A model generated the notes under the pieces. That model searched no databases. It saw only the letters and a list, made by a program, of their open reading frames with translations, and was not told where the DNA came from. A program made the translations under genes and the position numbers. From an uncultured Spirochaetaceae bacterium (lineage in GTDB: Bacteria > Spirochaetota > Spirochaetia > Sphaerochaetales > Sphaerochaetaceae), in assembly GCA_944392965.1 (NCBI GenBank), contig CALXYM010000007.1:1-64000 (forward strand): a stretch of DNA of 64,000 nucleotides. The letters are read 5' to 3'. Each line of letters begins with the position of its first letter. Within the stretch, counting starts at the first letter, position 1. Below are positions 5,826-61,477 of this stretch, one piece after another.

Positions 5826-7940
5826 ATGATATATGATATAAACAGGGTAGATGCCTCAAAGGTGAGGAAGATTAGCGAAGAATACGGGCTTGATATGCTC
5901 TCTGCCACGATTTTAAGCCGCAGAGGGATGGATGATAAGGAGAGCCTGAAATTCCTTTTTGAGAATGATCTGGTCTACCAGTATTCACCTTTTCTCTTTG
6001 ATGATATGGACAGTGCGGTGGAGAGGGTGAATGACGCCATCGAGAATGAGGAGAAGATATACATCTTCGGAGACAGGGATGTCGATGGTATCACGAGTAC
6101 CGCAATCCTTTATAAGGAGCTTACAAGGCTTGGCGCGAAAGATATAACATGCCGTTTACCACTTAATGATGAACCATATGGACTTACGTCGGATATCGTT
6201 GGAGAGGTCGTTGATTCTGGTTCCACGCTGCTTATCACCGTCGATAACGGGATAAGCGCCATCGAGGAGGTTAAGGTTCTCAGGGAGGAGGGAGTAGACA
6301 CCATAATCCTTGATCATCATATCGCGGGAGAAGTCTTTCCTCCGGCCCTTGCCATAATAGATCCTAAGATCCCCGGTTCCGGTTATCCTTTTGATGGGCT
6401 TGCCGGGTGTATGGTCGCATTCAAGTTCGCCTATGCCCTCCGTTTCTCCAGAACTCCTCTTTACCAGAGCGAGTGCATATTCTTCCATGCCCGCCCAGGA
6501 CAGGACACGGTGAAGATGAGTGCCGTGAAGATGGTCAACTTCGTCTTAGAGGATGAGCTGAGTGAGGAGCTGAGCGTCAACATGGTACCAAGCAGTGAGA
6601 GCCGAATGGTACGTTTTCTTGATCAGGGACTTCCCATCATCGTGATGGATAAGCAGCAGGAACTGAGTCTTTTGAATAAGGCGTTCAGTGATTCTGTGGA
6701 AATTGTACTCAATGATGTGCGGTCAGACATCGAGTCCGTAATCGCCTCTGTCAGAGGAAAGAGCCTCTTTACGCTCTCCAATATTTCCCGGGCAGTCAGG
6801 TATTCCGATTTCGATGATAGAGAGCTTTCAACCCTGATAAGTCTTTTCCGTTCCGCAATGCTCTATAAGAGCAGGACGCTCAGGGATGGGCTGGATGAGA
6901 GTCTTGCCCTTGCCGCTATCGGAACGGTAGCCGATCTTATGCCGATGAGGGGGGAGAACAGACTTTTCGTGAAGCTTGGACTCAGAATACTGGAAAAGAG
7001 TGCTCCTGATTATTTGAAGCCGGTGCTCTCCAGTTTCGATTTGATAGGGAAAAGAATCACAAGCCGTGACATATCCTTTTATATTGCACCTCTTATCAAC
7101 TCCTCAGGACGCCTTGGCAGGCCTGATGTCGCACTCTCACTCTTTCTTTCCTGCAAAAGGGAAGAGATTGAGAGGCTTTCTGAAGAGCTTATTAGGATGA
7201 ACAGGGAGAGAAAGAGCAATACCGAGAGTGCTATCGACAGTGTAAGGGAGGAGGCAGAGGATTCCCTCCACTTTTATCTGAACAGGTTCATCCTTGTGGA
7301 AAAGGATGTTCCGCGTGGTCTTACAGGAGCCATCGCGAGCAGGCTTTTGAATGAGTACGGTAAACCGACTCTCATCCTTGCAAGCATGGCCGATGGCAGG
7401 ATAAGTGCAAGTATGAGGACCAGAAAGAATTTCAATGCCCGTTCATTCCTCGATCATTTCTCTTCCCTTTTCCAGGATTTCGGAGGACATAGCTGTGCTG
7501 CTGGCTTTTCCATGGAAAAGTCGAATCTGGAAAGATTCAAAACAGAACTTAATGACGTCATATTCTCCCTTGATGATAAAGAGGAGGAAGAGTGCATCTC
7601 TGTGGATGCCGAACTTCCTGAGAGCTATATGAGCAAGGAGATATGGAAGATAAGGGATCTCTTTGAGCCATATGGACAGGAGAATGAGAGTTTGAAATTC
7701 CATATCAGAAGGGCCACTGTGGAGGATGTGCTTCCGAACAGGAACGGGGGCACCTATCTCCGCTTCTCGATACTATATAACAGGGAGATATGGCCTGCGG
7801 TATTCTGGGATTATGATATCTCAAAGGGGGAGGTCCATAAAGGCAGTACAGTGGAACTCATCTTCTCTCCGGAGGTGAATACATATAAGGGCTTGAGCCG
7901 TCTACAGCTCAATGTCTCGGCTCTTGAGGTGATAGAGTGA
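5826..7940 (+). CDS. recJ: Single-stranded-DNA-specific exonuclease RecJ
   Basis: 704 aa. RecJ degrades single-stranded DNA 5' to 3' in recombination and mismatch repair. DHH-family motifs are seen in order: FGDRDVDGITS, TVDNGISA, LDHHIAGE and then AAIGTVADLMP. The DHHA1 nucleic-acid-binding motif FGGHSCAAGFS follows, then a C-terminal OB domain. About 160 residues of poorly conserved sequence separate DHH motif III (LDHH) from GTVADL, longer than in enterobacterial RecJ. The start at 5826 leaves AGGG upstream. The last 28 codons recur, diverged, at 9910-9996. Confidence 0.92.
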   Translation: MIYDINRVDASKVRKISEEYGLDMLSATILSRRGMDDKESLKFLFENDLVYQYSPFLFDDMDSAVERVNDAIENEEKIYIFGDRDVDGITSTAILYKELTRLGAKDITCRLPLNDEPYGLTSDIVGEVVDSGSTLLITVDNGISAIEEVKVLREEGVDTIILDHHIAGEVFPPALAIIDPKIPGSGYPFDGLAGCMVAFKFAYALRFSRTPLYQSECIFFHARPGQDTVKMSAVKMVNFVLEDELSEELSVNMVPSSESRMVRFLDQGLPIIVMDKQQELSLLNKAFSDSVEIVLNDVRSDIESVIASVRGKSLFTLSNISRAVRYSDFDDRELSTLISLFRSAMLYKSRTLRDGLDESLALAAIGTVADLMPMRGENRLFVKLGLRILEKSAPDYLKPVLSSFDLIGKRITSRDISFYIAPLINSSGRLGRPDVALSLFLSCKREEIERLSEELIRMNRERKSNTESAIDSVREEAEDSLHFYLNRFILVEKDVPRGLTGAIASRLLNEYGKPTLILASMADGRISASMRTRKNFNARSFLDHFSSLFQDFGGHSCAAGFSMEKSNLERFKTELNDVIFSLDDKEEEECISVDAELPESYMSKEIWKIRDLFEPYGQENESLKFHIRRATVEDVLPNRNGGTYLRFSILYNREIWPAVFWDYDISKGEVHKGSTVELIFSPEVNTYKGLSRLQLNVSALEVIE

Positions 7941-7978
7941 CAGCATTGGATAAACTTATTTAGATATTGGAGATATGT

Positions 7979-9718
7979 ATGAGGAAAATAATTATTGTTT
8001 TACTTGCTTTTTTTGTTTGCTCCTGTTCTACTTTTTTTAATACGCCTAATGATACGCCTAATGATTCAGAAGCGATGACTGAATTAAAAAATGAATTGGC
8101 TGGCGTTGATTTTATGGAATATTTTGATTTCAGATATCTTCCTTATTATAGTGTCGAAGCCGTATATAAAAGTTTAGATGCTGCCGCAATGTTAGGGGAA
8201 TACGTTCATGTGAGCGATGATGATACAATCTTTCATAATGTGTTTGCAGTAATTAAATATTATCAAAATTTTGATGAATACGAAGAAAATCCAGAGTATG
8301 TAGAAGAAGCCTTTTCGATTTTTATAAACGGAGAGGATGGTTTTGATAATTACTTTTCTCCAATGCTCTCTGGAAATGTTTTTTCTGCTTATGCTGGCTC
8401 TTATGCCAGGAATCGAATAAGCGATACATATTATAGTTATCAACAAATACAAAAGGAAGCATCTCCTTTTGGAGAATTTTATACCGATGTCCTTTTTAAT
8501 AGTTATAAAGAAGCATTAGGTTATTATGTTGCTGCTAATCTTGCTGGAAGTTTGAGTGAGGAGGAAAAAGCGATAATCTCATCATTTGGAATCACACCAG
8601 AATATTTAGAAAACAACTGCGAAAACTATTTAGATACGTATTTTAGAAGTCATTATGCCCCTAATATTTTTGAAAGAGTTGAGGAGGTGTATGTACATAC
8701 TGGTTTAAAATTCTCTCTTGATATATCTGTCATATACGATGTCGTAGAGGACTACATTCAGGATCTCCTTTATTCAACTGAAGAGAATTTCTCTAAGATT
8801 TGGGATAATCGGGGATATCCTATAAATCTTTATTCTGAGTTAAAGGCTCTCGGTGGTGATGGCAAATTGTATGAAAGCCTTATCGCAACTGCCCAGACTG
8901 CATTTAAGTTTGAGATTGATAATGCTCAAAGTATTGAGGAAATTCATGAAATACAGAGTAAATCTGCATATGTACAATTAGGAATGGAAGAGTATGCGCA
9001 AAGTGCTATTGACGCTATCTATACAAGAAATGTGGTGGAATATGAAGGGAAATACAATGAATTGCTTTCTGTTATTTATGGCGAAGTAACACCGAGCGCA
9101 GAACGGTATTCAGAGGTAATAAACGCTTGTATTGAATTTTTCAACATTTTTAATTCAGGAAAAGAAATGGATGACGCTTCAAAGTGGAAGGAGTTTCCAT
9201 TCATTACAGAGAAAACCATGAAAGATGTTTCTGATATTTATGACAATAATGTAAAGGCTTTAGACCTGCTTAACTGGATGTCGTCAGAACGTTACTCTTT
9301 TATTATTGATTCTATCCCCTCAGAGTTTATAGATGCTCCTCTGTATATTGGGCACAATGGGATTGCATACAAAAATACAGATACAACCCTGAGAGAATGT
9401 ATTTCTTCTCATAATTTGAAAGATATTGAGCTAATTATTACTCCAACAGGATACTTTGATGATAAGATACTAATTGAGCAGTTCTTTGAATCTTTTAGTT
9501 GGTCATGGGGAAAAAATATTCGGTATGAGCTTTCAATGACGGTTTCTATTGATGCACAGGGCAATGCCGTTATTGAATCTGCTTCAGATGATACGCAATT
9601 AATTTATTACTCAGAGAATTATAAGGATATCGAATATGTATTTAATAAGGTATTTTCAGGATCTGCTGAGGATGAATACATGGCGGATTTGATTTGGTAT
9701 AGCTTGTTTAATTCTTGA
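7979..9718 (+). CDS. Large putative lipoprotein inserted behind recJ
   Basis: 579 aa from the ATG at 7979. MRKIIIVLLAFFVCSCSTFF is a lipoprotein signal with Cys17. The rest is acidic and helical with many aromatic residues, and no domain was recognised. A short duplication NTPNDTPND follows the lipobox. The DNA is clearly more AT-rich than recJ or rpmB. The gene lies between the real recJ 3' end and a second, diverged recJ 3' end (9910-9996), so it probably arrived as a unit by recombination at recJ. Function unknown; likely exported and membrane-anchored. Confidence 0.6.
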   Translation: MRKIIIVLLAFFVCSCSTFFNTPNDTPNDSEAMTELKNELAGVDFMEYFDFRYLPYYSVEAVYKSLDAAAMLGEYVHVSDDDTIFHNVFAVIKYYQNFDEYEENPEYVEEAFSIFINGEDGFDNYFSPMLSGNVFSAYAGSYARNRISDTYYSYQQIQKEASPFGEFYTDVLFNSYKEALGYYVAANLAGSLSEEEKAIISSFGITPEYLENNCENYLDTYFRSHYAPNIFERVEEVYVHTGLKFSLDISVIYDVVEDYIQDLLYSTEENFSKIWDNRGYPINLYSELKALGGDGKLYESLIATAQTAFKFEIDNAQSIEEIHEIQSKSAYVQLGMEEYAQSAIDAIYTRNVVEYEGKYNELLSVIYGEVTPSAERYSEVINACIEFFNIFNSGKEMDDASKWKEFPFITEKTMKDVSDIYDNNVKALDLLNWMSSERYSFIIDSIPSEFIDAPLYIGHNGIAYKNTDTTLRECISSHNLKDIELIITPTGYFDDKILIEQFFESFSWSWGKNIRYELSMTVSIDAQGNAVIESASDDTQLIYYSENYKDIEYVFNKVFSGSAEDEYMADLIWYSLFNS

Positions 9719-9807
9719 TTCCTAGGGCCTCTCGCAAATATAAAGTTAAATCCAATTGGAATTTGGCGATTCGTTTGTTCGATTTGATTTTCAGAGGAAT
9801 TGATCCA

Positions 9808-9833
9808 TCTACTTGAAAAATCGAGTAGGTGGA
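9808..9833. other. Imperfect hairpin in the 9719-10135 gap
   Basis: CATCTACT and AGTAGGTG can pair around TGAAAAATCG. A shorter palindrome around TCCAATTGGA lies at about 9753. Neither is followed by a T-run, so neither reads as a terminator. The rest of 9719-9909 shows no gene. Confidence 0.3.
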
Positions 9834-9909
9834 GGCTCTGGAAAGGATTGAAGTTTTGAAGGCTTACAGAGGATATCAAGTGTTAAAGGTTTATGAAGAA
9901 TGCACTAGG

Positions 9910-9996
9910 GAGCTTATCTTCTCTTCTGAGGTGAATACCTATAAGGGCTTGAGCCGTCTGCAGTTAAATGTAACGGCCCTTGAAGTTATCTCATGA
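9910..9996 (+). pseudogene. Orphan duplicate of the recJ 3' end
   Basis: Encodes ELIFSSEVNTYKGLSRLQ and then LNVTALEVIS-stop. This is the same as the last 28 residues of recJ (7854-7940) except for a few substitutions. The DNA differs mainly at synonymous third positions (ACA/ACC, CTA/CTG, GAG/GAA), so it is a diverged homologous copy and not a recent duplication. It has no start and cannot make RecJ. It marks the right junction of the segment carrying the 7979-9718 lipoprotein gene. Confidence 0.85.
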
Positions 9997-10040
9997 TGGG
10001 TACGAGGTATACGGGTTTGGACAAATTTCCCTCTTTGGTA

Positions 10041-10070
10041 TTTACAAATCCTTAACCTTTTTGCTATAGT
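10041..10070 (+). promoter_or_regulatory. rpmB promoter
   Basis: TTTACA at 10041-10046, an 18 bp spacer, and TATAGT at 10065-10070. This predicts a leader of about 60 nt before the rpmB ATG, which has an AAGGTGG ribosome site. It contrasts with the leaderless promoters elsewhere in the window. Confidence 0.6.
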
Positions 10071-10135
10071 CAGTTTGTTGCCTCCGTGATGGAGTGTTAG
10101 AAATAGCATTTACTTAAGTAAGGTGGAATATAATC

Positions 10136-10366
10136 ATGGCTAGAAGATGTGATATTTGTGGAAAGGGAACGGTATCAGGATCCATTGTTCCTCGCAAAGG
10201 TCAGGCTAAGAAGAAAGGTGGTGTAGGACAGCACATTGGAGTTACGAAGAAGCGTGTCTTCAGACCGAACATCGTTTCTGTTAAGGCTTTAATCGACGGT
10301 ACACCAAGAACAATCAAAGTATGTACACGCTGCCTCAGAAGTGGAAAAGTCCAGAAGGTCGTGTAA
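10136..10366 (+). CDS. rpmB: 50S ribosomal protein L28
   Basis: 76 aa. Begins MARRCDICGKG and has KRVFRPNI and a C-terminal KVCTRCLRSGKV. The two CxxC pairs make this the zinc-binding form of L28. It is a structural component of the large ribosomal subunit. Transcribed alone, from the promoter at 10041 to the terminator at 10391. L33, often next to L28, is not here. Confidence 0.96.
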   Translation: MARRCDICGKGTVSGSIVPRKGQAKKKGGVGQHIGVTKKRVFRPNIVSVKALIDGTPRTIKVCTRCLRSGKVQKVV

Positions 10367-15960: not shown

Positions 15961-17589
15961 ATGGAAAAGTATTTGAAGCCCATCACCACTGGAAACAGTA
16001 ATTTCAAGGAGCTTATAGAGCATGGGAATATCTATGTTGATAAAACCAGATATCTTCTTGATCTGATAGAAGGTGAGGGAAGTGAGAAATATTATTTTCT
16101 GTCCCGCCCCAGAAGATTTGGAAAAAGCCTCACTGTTGATACTCTTCTGAATATCTTTTCTGGAAACAAATATTTGTTTGAGAGTCTCTACATATATGAT
16201 AAATACTGCTTTGATGTTAATCCCGTAATAAAGATAAATCTTAATAACGTATCAGTTTCCAGTCTTTCAGATTTTCTTACGACGCTTAAATTGGATGTTC
16301 TTTATCCGATAGCACAGCAATATGGAGTAGATGAGAACTTTCCTCTCGGTGAGAATATTCCTTCTCTCTGGATGAATTATATCATCAGTGCCGTTAGTGA
16401 GAAATACAAGAGGCAGGTTGTCATATTGATTGATGAGTATGATTATCCTCTCCTCGATTCTATACATGATGATGTGTTTTCAATGGTTCGTGACAGCTTA
16501 GAAAGTTTCTTCAGCGTCTTGAAAGCTAGAGAGGAGGATATCAAATTCTGTTTCATCACTGGAATAACGAGATTTTCTCAGGTTTCTCTTTTCTCTAAGC
16601 TTAATAACCTTGTGGATATCTCGGATGATCCCAGATATGCGTCAATCTGCGGCTATACGGATCAGGAACTTGATTATTATTTTTCTCCTTATATGGAGAA
16701 GTATTATCAGGAGAATGGTGTTTCCAATGAGGATGGAAAAGCTGATTTCAGGAATAGAATAAGGTCTTATTATGATGGATACCGTTTTTCCCCGAGATCA
16801 GCAGTATGTGTATATAATCCCGTCTCCATCGGATTCTTTTTCAAGCGAGGATGTAATTTCTGGGTTACTACCGGTTCTCAACGCCTTGTCAGGGAGATAG
16901 TCTCCCTGTACCCGTCTTATTTCGAAGAAGGGGATGTATATAAACTCCCAAGTGCAAGAGCAAAGAGTTTTGAGGTAAGAGCTATTTTCTCAGGAAATGC
17001 AGATCGTACATATGTATATTCATATTTTTTACAGGCGGGGTATCTTACTATCAGGGATGAGAAAAACGGGGTCTATGAACTCTCTTATCCAAATGAGGAA
17101 GTCCGAGATGCGATTTCCGCGTCTGTTTTAAATACTTACGGTCTTTCTGCCGAAGCTGAGATGGTGAGAGCTGTCAGAACAGCATTCAGAGAGGGATGTG
17201 TCGAAGATATTATCGATATTTACAGGAATTTCTTTTCTTCCTTTCCTTATGATCTTTTTTTAGATAAGGAAAGAGGCTATCAGATAGCATTTTTCTCCTC
17301 TTTAAAAACAATAGGTCTGGAGGCTAGGGCTGAGGAACATACGAGCATAGGTCGCATGGATATAAGCGTCCGGCTTGAAAAGTACGGACAGTTTTATGCG
17401 ATGGAGCTTAAACTTGATGACAGTGCGGAGAATGCTTTAGCTCAGATAAAGGATAGGAAATACCATGAGATTTTTGAACAGGATGGATGTGTTATCCATC
17501 TGGTCGGGATAAATTTCTCCTCTGAAAAGAGGAATATAGAATCGTGGTGTGAGGAGGTGTTGAATCATTCCAATGAGAATTTTTCATAG
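15961..17589 (+). CDS. AAA-ATPase-like / PD-(D/E)XK nuclease family protein
   Basis: 542 aa. The N-terminal AAA-ATPase-like domain (PF09820 type) has YVDKTRYLLDLI, then SRPRRFGKSLTVDTLLNIF (Walker A) and VVILIDEYDYPLLDS (Walker B). The C-terminal ~110 residues have the PD-(D/E)XK nuclease core: RMDISVRLEK, then MELKLD, then ALAQIKDRKY. The family is expanded in gut anaerobes and spirochaetes, with unknown biological role. A second, frameshifted member lies at 45526. Translation should be leaderless. The 3' end overlaps hflX (opposite strand) by 25 bp. Confidence 0.85.
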   Translation: MEKYLKPITTGNSNFKELIEHGNIYVDKTRYLLDLIEGEGSEKYYFLSRPRRFGKSLTVDTLLNIFSGNKYLFESLYIYDKYCFDVNPVIKINLNNVSVSSLSDFLTTLKLDVLYPIAQQYGVDENFPLGENIPSLWMNYIISAVSEKYKRQVVILIDEYDYPLLDSIHDDVFSMVRDSLESFFSVLKAREEDIKFCFITGITRFSQVSLFSKLNNLVDISDDPRYASICGYTDQELDYYFSPYMEKYYQENGVSNEDGKADFRNRIRSYYDGYRFSPRSAVCVYNPVSIGFFFKRGCNFWVTTGSQRLVREIVSLYPSYFEEGDVYKLPSARAKSFEVRAIFSGNADRTYVYSYFLQAGYLTIRDEKNGVYELSYPNEEVRDAISASVLNTYGLSAEAEMVRAVRTAFREGCVEDIIDIYRNFFSSFPYDLFLDKERGYQIAFFSSLKTIGLEARAEEHTSIGRMDISVRLEKYGQFYAMELKLDDSAENALAQIKDRKYHEIFEQDGCVIHLVGINFSSEKRNIESWCEEVLNHSNENFS

Positions 17590-45525: not shown

Positions 45526-47142
45526 ATGGCAGAAAGACTTAAATATTTAGCAACGGATTCCAGATCCTTACAGGAACTTATTCAAGGTGGGTACCTTTAT
45601 GTTGATAAGACGGAACATCTTTACCAGATGATTAGGAAAGGTTCTCCTTCAAAATACTGGTTCTTAGCACGTCCTCGTCGATTTGGGAAAAGTCTTACTG
45701 TAGATACTTTTCTTAATATTTTTTTCTGGATGTAAGGAATTATTTAAAGATACATATATATACGATAAGCATGATTTCTCTTCATTTCCTGTAATAAGAC
45801 TGAATATGAACAATACTGATAATTATGGGCTTGAGGAGTTTTTATATACTTTAAAAAACAATGTTATTCTTCCTGTCGCGGATGAATTGGGAGTAATAGA
45901 GGATTTTCCTTTTGATGCGGTTACTCCCTCTACATGGCTGAACTATCTGCTCGATTCTGTTTCAAAGAAGTATGGAAAACAGGTCGTAGTACTCATTGAT
46001 GAATATGATTATCCTTTGCTTGATTCAATTCCAAATAAGACTTTCGAGGAGATAAGTAAGAGAATAGAGAGCTTCTATAGTGCATTGAAAGCACGTGAGG
46101 AGAGAATAAAGTTTTGCTTTATTACAGGTATAACAAGATTTTCTCAGGTGTCCATATTCTCAAAGCTTAATAATTTGATAGACATATCCAATGATCCAGA
46201 TTATACAGCTCTTTGCGGGTATACGGATGATGAGATAAATCGGTATTTTTCTTCTTTTTTCAGACAGTATTTTGAAAAGGAAAATATAGATTCAGAAGAA
46301 GAGAAAAGGAAGTTCAGATCGGAAATAAAAGAGTATTATGATGGATACCGTTTTAGTCTGGATAGTGATATAAGCGTATATAATCCTGTTTCCATAGGCA
46401 GGTTTTTTACTAATGGCTGCCGATTTGAGAATTACTGGATAGAAACAGGAGCTCAGTCATTAGTCGATAAGATTATAACGGGACATCCTGAATTATTCAG
46501 GGAAGGAACTGTCTTTTCTGTAGAAGAAGCTGCTACGAGAACATTCAAGATTGATGAAATTTTTTCTCAAAATCCTGTTAAAGATTCTATTTACTCATAC
46601 CTTATACAGGCCGGATATCTTACAATGAAGTGTAACGATTATGGCAATATAATTCTCGATTATCCGAATAGGGAAGTCCGAGATACCATGAATGCAAAAG
46701 TGATAGCACATATGGTTTGACAGTCGGAGGGGCTAGGATCCAGCATTTGAAAAAGGCTTTTATGGAAGGAGATACTAAGGGCATAATAAAGATGTTTCAA
46801 GAAGCATACATGAATATCCCTTATGATATGTTCTTGGAAAAAGAAAGAAACTATCAGATAGCTTTTTTTACCGTACTCATGTTATTAGGTTTCGACAGAG
46901 TCGAAGCGGAGGAGAGGACAAATATAGGAAGAATAGATATCACTGTCACTGTAAAAAAAGGACTTGTCTATATAATAGAACTAAAATTGGATGAGAATGC
47001 AGACACTGCTCTTAATCAGATAAAAGAGAAAAAATATTACGAAAAATATTTGGAGGAAGGTAATACCATCCATCTTTTGGGTATAAACTTCTCTTCTATA
47101 GAACGCAATATAACGGATTGGAAGGAAGAAGTGATTTCTTGA
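45526..47142 (+). pseudogene. AAA-ATPase-like/PD-(D/E)XK family gene broken by two frameshifts
   Basis: Paralogue of the gene at 15961 (YVDKTEHLYQMI, ARPRRFGKSLTVDT, VVVLIDEYDYPLLDS, RIDITVTVKKG, IIELKLD). Frame 1 runs to 45735 and is shifted by one base at a run of seven Ts (45719-45725); six Ts would continue NIFSGCKELFKD as in the paralogue. The second frame continues to 46720 and ends after IAHMV, where one missing base near 46705-46710 would restore YGLTVGGARIQHLKKAF. The last frame runs to 47142. Both shifts compensate overall. Likely a pseudogene, or phase-variable at the T-run, or an assembly error. Confidence 0.8.
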
Positions 47143-60200: not shown

Positions 60201-60257
60201 AAGGAAAAACTTTTCCTTTTAACTATTGATAAGATAAATAATAATTTTATCAATAGT
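60201..60257. repeat. Inverted repeats at the cas-proximal edge of the array
   Basis: AAGGAAAA-AC-TTTTCCTT at 60201-60218. ACTATTGATAA (60222-60232) pairs with TTATCAATAGT (60247-60257), an 11 bp perfect inverted repeat whose right arm includes the first three bases of the first CRISPR repeat. This is a candidate leader or integration-anchoring site. Confidence 0.6.
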
Positions 60258-61477
60258 ATAACATACTTTACTTAAGCTAGCATTCCCAACACGGTTAATG
60301 CAATAGTGTTTTTCCTTCTCAGTATAACATACTTTACTTAAGCTAGCATTCCCAACCAAAGGAATGCTATAGCTATTGGCGCAACGAGTATAACATACTT
60401 TACTTAAGCTAGCATTCCCAACAAGGCATTGGGTGGGTATCATCTACCCTGAAGTATAACATACTTTACTTAAGCTAGCATTCCCAACCATCACTATCGT
60501 GTGCCGTAGAACCAGGACAGTATAACATACTTTACTTAAGCTAGCATTCCCAACCATAGATGTTCTAATTACTGAATATCTATTAGTATAACATACTTTA
60601 CTTAAGCTAGCATTCCCAACGGCCTAAGCTGGGAACTTGGGTCAGTTCCCAGTATAACATACTTTACTTAAGCTAGCATTCCCAACATCAATATAATACG
60701 GACGCTGCAAATATCCAGTATAACATACTTTACTTAAGCTAGCATTCCCAACTTTTGCTCCGGAGAGTACGGAGATAAGTTCAGTATAACATACTTTACT
60801 TAAGCTAGCATTCCCAACGTCTTGTGGTGGCATATCTCCGCAACGCCGAGTATAACATACTTTACTTAAGCTAGCATTCCCAACATCCAAAAGTAGCAGT
60901 ACCTGAAACCTTATAGTATAACATACTTTACTTAAGCTAGCATTCCCAACTATACATTGTCATTTAACTACTTCCTTTTCAGTATAACATACTTTACTTA
61001 AGCTAGCATTCCCAACACCGAAGCATTGGTTACAAGTGAACTTGAAAGTATAACATACTTTACTTAAGCTAGCATTCCCAACTCAATCATGTGCGGAGTG
61101 ACTAGACAGCATAGTATAACATACTTTACTTAAGCTAGCATTCCCAACGAATCTGCAAAGACGCTAAATCCACAACAGAGTATAACATACTTTACTTAAG
61201 CTAGCATTCCCAACTCTTTCGTTGCCGCTACCTTTGTAGTCCCGAGTATAACATACTTTACTTAAGCTAGCATTCCCAACAACAGATATGCCCGTCCTGA
61301 GTATCAAGTCAGTATAACATACTTTACTTAAGCTAGCATTCCCAACTCAGACTTTCAAGTGACATTGTATCTATAAAGTATAACATATTTTACTTAAGCT
61401 AGCGTTCCCAACTTTACGGAGAAGGTCAGAATGGTGTTTCTAAGTATATCATTTTCATTTAAGTTAGTATTCTTAAT
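60255..61477 (-). CRISPR. CRISPR array, 19 repeats of 36 bp and 18 spacers of 30 bp
   Basis: Repeats occur every 66 bp from 60255. The first 17 copies (last at 61311-61346) are identical; the copy at 61377 has two changes; the last, at 61443-61477, is degenerate and one base shorter. On the crRNA strand (minus) the repeat begins GTTGGGAATGCTAGC and ends GTATGTTATACT. The tracrRNA anti-repeat fixes this direction. All 18 spacers are 30 bp and no two look alike. The repeat end contains TGT-TATACT, an extended -10 box. Protein-like reading frames through it are artefacts. Confidence 0.98.

Follow-up and report, generated by a model that had tools for sequence, protein, structure and literature searches.

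One means by which a gene can come to be flanked by a long direct repeat is insertion with long target duplication, which was reportedly described in Helicobacter by Nobusato et al. in 2000. Another kind of event is illustrated by e14, a prophage of Escherichia coli that encodes a site-specific recombinase. This element is a 15-kb prophage at icd, with 163 bp of the icd 3′ end displaced (PMC6379469). At rhs loci, incoming 3′ ends displace resident ones, and the latter are left downstream as dissociated tips (PMC2935791). Finally, for the type VI secretion system (T6SS) immunity arrays of Vibrio, homology-facilitated illegitimate recombination has been proposed (PMC5361080).

The geometry of 3′-end displacement is also present in an uncultured spirochete, where, within a window comprising the whole 64,000-nucleotide stretch of DNA analyzed, an intact recJ gene is followed by an insert and then by a second recJ 3′ end. 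Unlike e14, a 15-kb prophage with a recombinase, this insert is 2 kb in length and holds one lipoprotein gene and no recombinase. The likeness lies in a target gene that would have been completed by a supplied 3′ end, with its own end left beyond the insert, as the account of icd has it (PMC6379469). A displaced resident 3′ end kept downstream is likewise a feature of rhs; there, however, the ends are described as variable alternatives (PMC2935791), whereas here the gene is a housekeeping one and its protein end is nearly identical in both copies. With the Vibrio arrays, the locus would share homology anchoring one side, an illegitimate joint on the other, and the retention of displaced pieces (PMC5361080), but the displaced immunity gene has a likely use there, whereas the tail here appears dead. 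The features of the locus, by position in the window, are as follows.

5829–7940, plus strand: recJ, intact, 703 aa (TIGR00644, 471 bits against a cut-off of 397; DHH, DHHA1, and RecJ_OB domains)
7854–7940, plus strand: tail copy 1, the end that recJ uses, comprising its final 28 codons and stop (from repeat and codon comparison)
7941–7978, plus strand: spacer between recJ and the lipoprotein gene
7979–9718, plus strand: predicted lipoprotein gene, 579 aa, without a known family
9719–9886, no strand: stretch of unknown origin between the lipoprotein gene and the second tail (recJ similarity not above shuffles)
9887–9909, plus strand: weakly recJ-like lead-in to copy 2 (tblastn match from 9886; 17 of 30 identical at 9886–9915)
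9910–9996, plus strand: tail copy 2, 28 recJ codons and stop, without a recJ body (from repeat and codon comparison)
9997–10135, plus strand: ancestral recJ-rpmB spacer with a conserved rpmB promoter (from alignment with the relatives G071, G063, and G017 and a promoter scan)
10136–10366, plus strand: rpmB, 95–99% identical in five relatives

The last of these genes is one that we take to be rpmB, encoding ribosomal protein L28, and the promoter scan placed its promoter (TTTACA-18-TATAGT) at 10041–10070. Downstream of the lipoprotein gene, a hairpin of 12–13 bp that lacks a T run occurs at 9803–9834.

The preliminary description of this DNA held that a lipoprotein gene sits between two diverged recJ ends, nearly identical in protein but with many synonymous differences, and this was clearly borne out: repeat analysis, tblastn, and codon comparison all agree that the last recJ codons recur approximately 2 kb downstream. 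A direct repeat pairs 7831–7933 with 9887–9989 (spacing, 2056; 78% ungapped identity), and a tblastn search of the genome with its own recJ detected the second tail at 9886–9990 (residues 668–702, 77%, E 2e-8). Over the last 28 codons (7854–7937 versus 9910–9993), the copies share 80% of their nucleotides and 25 of 28 amino acids, with 12 synonymous and five amino acid-changing differences (dS 1.18, dN 0.083); 12 of the 17 nucleotide differences fall in third positions. Similarity is strong from 7860/9916, weak over 7830–7859/9886–9915, and absent further upstream, and the identical runs inside the repeat measure 9, 11, and 20 bases, the first being 7860–7868, with none at a clear border. Over 9719–9909, a search for a further part of recJ ahead of copy 2 found nothing that exceeded shuffles. 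Of the 95 ORF tails in the window, that of recJ is the only one to be partially repeated close by in this way; the remaining matches were between two AAA/PD-(D/E)XK paralogues, together with one weak match (E 0.003). These two AAA-ATPase_like/PD-(D/E)XK paralogues, at 15961–17589 and ~45572–47142, are themselves diverged; the Pfam analysis covered the first.

The synonymous divergence of the two tails matches that between recJ genes of different species, as dS from copy 1 is 1.16 to G071 and 0.82 to G017, versus 1.18 between the copies. Decay was simulated in 4000 runs at each of three divergence levels, with omega (0.1) and kappa (2) set by our own choice. When one copy decayed freely, five or fewer amino acid-changing differences arose in none of the runs with a matching synonymous count (0/126, 0/1195, and 0/1341), and on average ~21 to 27 such differences would be expected rather than the five observed. 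When both copies were constrained, this number was reached in about 1025 of 1533 matching runs (0.67) at t = 0.4 and in 0.26 of 1329 at t = 0.6, and adding ~0.05 or 0.1 free changes per site lowered the fraction at t = 0.4 to 0.23 or 0.06, respectively. Under this model, the data therefore fit two constrained copies with at most ~0.05–0.1 free changes per site, and neutral decay after a local duplication is rejected. Since simulated decay never gives the observed pattern, both tails would have diverged inside working recJ genes, with copy 2 falling out of use later. One tail thus came from outside or from a second recJ that has been lost, and the proposal that it derives from another recJ allele fits the coding-constrained divergence of the copies.

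The arrangement is a derived one. Comparison of the recJ-rpmB interval was suggested at the outset, as an arrangement shared by all relatives would mark an old tandem duplication; in all five of the nearest relatives, recJ instead runs straight into rpmB over a spacer of ~115–135 bp, and both the lipoprotein gene and the second tail are missing. Moreover, none of the 47 other genomes of the genus, to which Candidatus Ornithospirochaeta stercorigallinarum also belongs, has a second recJ tail; one tail was found in 44, which were scorable, while two of the remaining three gave no match and one was cut before the tail. The tail-lipoprotein-tail arrangement is therefore new in this lineage, and an old duplication common to the relatives is rejected. 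The downstream side of recJ was read in 31 relatives, and rpmB occurs there in five, all insert-free. The gene following recJ (L003–L031) is rpmB in one group, apparently rpsU-like in many others (ORFs read by eye), with several relatives differing from both, which makes this a gene border that has frequently been broken.

As for which tail is native, copy 2 runs into a spacer common to G071, G063, and G017 (0 of 1000 shuffles were as good), including GTTTGGACAAATTT, which is common to G071. Because it abuts this ancestral spacer and the rpmB promoter, copy 2 is likely to be the resident tail, which incoming DNA with a recJ end and the lipoprotein gene would have displaced. The best explanation of the locus, to which we would assign a probability of roughly one half, is accordingly that one-sided recombination displaced the recJ 3′ end. 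A related spirochete would have supplied a DNA fragment bearing its own recJ end (or more) and then the lipoprotein gene, and this fragment would have paired by homology with the resident recJ on the left; on the right, an illegitimate joint would have formed past the lipoprotein gene and just inside the resident recJ tail. The outcome would be a complete recJ with the incoming tail (copy 1) and a new lipoprotein gene behind it, with the resident tail (copy 2) remaining as a relic before its own spacer and the rpmB promoter. All that this requires is a donor with a lipoprotein gene behind recJ, although no genome with that order was found among the 48 of the genus. The general process is already known; here, it is met at a housekeeping gene.

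The lipoprotein gene itself is open across 579 aa and has a lipoprotein-like start, with a signal peptide and cysteine as judged by eye. As previously described, it is AT-rich, with a GC content of ~0.32–0.35 in windows within the gene versus 0.44–0.51 in recJ, and a GC3 of 0.27 versus 0.54. No Pfam, NCBIfam, or PADLOC match was obtained, a PHROGs search gave a single match (E 0.66), and fold prediction from the single sequence was poor (pLDDT 44). The gene looks foreign and is sporadic, occurring in three of the 48 genomes of the genus, its own included. The relative in G020 is distant (34%) and seemingly broken by a stop, while that in G064 is 41% identical over a part and adjoins an IS110-like transposase (ORF read by eye); neither is at recJ, as both are on contigs that differ from those of recJ in their genomes. 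A profile of the three lipoproteins, run against 394 genomes of the class, recovered the same three and no others, and relatives sought in genome contigs, viral contigs, and phage and plasmid records were not found.

It is conceivable, albeit unlikely, that an integrating element instead left the locus behind as a relic. Like e14 at icd, such an element would have attached at the recJ 3′ end and brought a replacement tail with it; it would either have shrunk since then to the lipoprotein gene or have depended for its movement on an integrase gene located elsewhere. The order of the parts is the same as at icd (a gene with a supplied end, the element, and the displaced 3′ end), homology is confined to the gene end, and seven Phage_integrase matches occur in the genome. 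None of these seven places, however, is on contig C7, and neither an integrase nor any known mobile family was found in the insert, the lipoprotein and two other ORFs of 86 aa all being without a Pfam match. Moreover, no exact core marks the start of the homology, which instead fades out, and there is one insertion at one site (with no second tail in the scorable genomes noted above). No viral contig was found with the recJ tail or the lipoprotein, and phage and plasmid records yielded no lipoprotein match. A search for a tRNA or Rfam target at the insert found none. The resemblance to target-gene regeneration suggested in the preliminary description extends to the geometry alone, as neither a recombinase nor a core site nor a second insertion came to light; that description's remark that the insert has no integrase is supported.

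A mirror image of the favored course, in which copy 1 would be the native tail and the DNA that came in would have run from the lipoprotein gene through copy 2 and the spacer to rpmB, is harder still to credit. Copy 1 is nearer than copy 2 to G071 (77 versus 68% identity) and G017 (79 versus 71%), in a comparison that leaves out G010, whose tail was taken into the tree. Its branch is also shorter. Against the relatives’ majority, four changes fall on copy 1 versus 10 on copy 2, an excess that weakly favors displacement of copy 2 as a tail no longer used, the sites being few. The first 28 nucleotides after copy 1 resemble, in register, the start of the G071 spacer, a likeness equaled by 1 of 1000 shuffles, while three such comparisons, involving copy 2, G063, and G017, were not significant; this likeness and the ~15 extra bases that follow the stop of copy 2 relative to G071 would also suit copy 1 as native. 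The mirror image, however, needs a donor in which the lipoprotein gene already lay beside a headless recJ tail, and the distances of rpmB and thrA to relatives are ordinary. The 84-nucleotide tail tree does not single out the native copy (support 17–69), a crossover sought through distances along recO, recJ, rpmB, and thrA gave no break, and the distances of the window recJ to three relatives are roughly even from end to end. The direction in which copy 1 is incoming and copy 2 resident is therefore favored, not proven. Of the idea that a donor fragment brought its own recJ end and stranded the original tail, the stranding is supported by the ancestral spacer kept at copy 2, whereas the proposed test of tails against phylogeny picked out neither copy as foreign and no donor was found among the genomes of the genus.

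Tandem duplication could have acted in another guise, with a second working recJ diverging before the lipoprotein gene replaced all but its tail. No foreign donor would then be needed to account for the coding-type divergence of the two tails, but the scenario requires a long-lived paralogue followed by its near-complete loss, and no scorable genome of the genus retains a second tail; we regard it as distinctly improbable. Even less credence is due to a chimeric assembly, in which a metagenome bin mixed two related strains or species: the genome comprises 38 contigs and its nearest named relatives are metagenome bins, yet both flanks lie in ancestral order on a single contig, and the longest exact match in the shared stretch, at 20 bases, is too short to cause a misjoin. 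Insertion with a long target duplication in this lineage, after which the spare tail would have decayed neutrally, has geometry alone in its favor and is almost certainly wrong, as copies expected to be identical at the start are here diverged as between species and simulated decay never yields so few amino acid changes. An integron origin was also rejected, as the sequence after the lipoprotein gene and a repeat at 1488–1619 barely fold better than shuffles (z −1.3 to 0.0) and a search for an integron integrase gave none above the cut-off.

Under one-sided recombination, the stranded tail would be a readable scar, suggesting that a core repair gene can take in divergent DNA along with a new lipoprotein gene and that neither recJ nor the rpmB promoter is broken in the process. 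The locus would offer a clean case for studying the placement of sporadic lipoprotein genes in uncultured gut spirochetes, and it cautions that duplications of gene ends need no integrase. It is tempting to speculate, at very long odds, that small recombinase-less cassettes in gut spirochetes carry substitute 3′ ends of core genes and so spread AT-rich surface lipoprotein genes; by this proposal, the substitute ends would make it harmless for them to insert after essential or important genes, recJ being an example.

Elsewhere in the window, a direct repeat of ~125 bp (7–127 and 1488–1619) flanks a 1.36-kb minus-strand gene block that is zeta-toxin/AAA kinase-like and lies upstream of a gene that is presumably carbamate kinase-like. 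Matches to the repeat occur in 43 of the 48 genomes of the genus, at up to 96–98%. A near-identical block is found in G024, where it lies between two repeats and precedes a ppdK-like gene; G071 has part of the block. Eleven of the 18 recJ-linked copies for which the contig extent is known have less than 1.1 kb of contig remaining upstream. The repeat may be a promoter-bearing one by which gene blocks spread. Finally, a tandem repeat at 60255–61412 comprises 17 copies of a 66-nucleotide unit (22 codons if coding).
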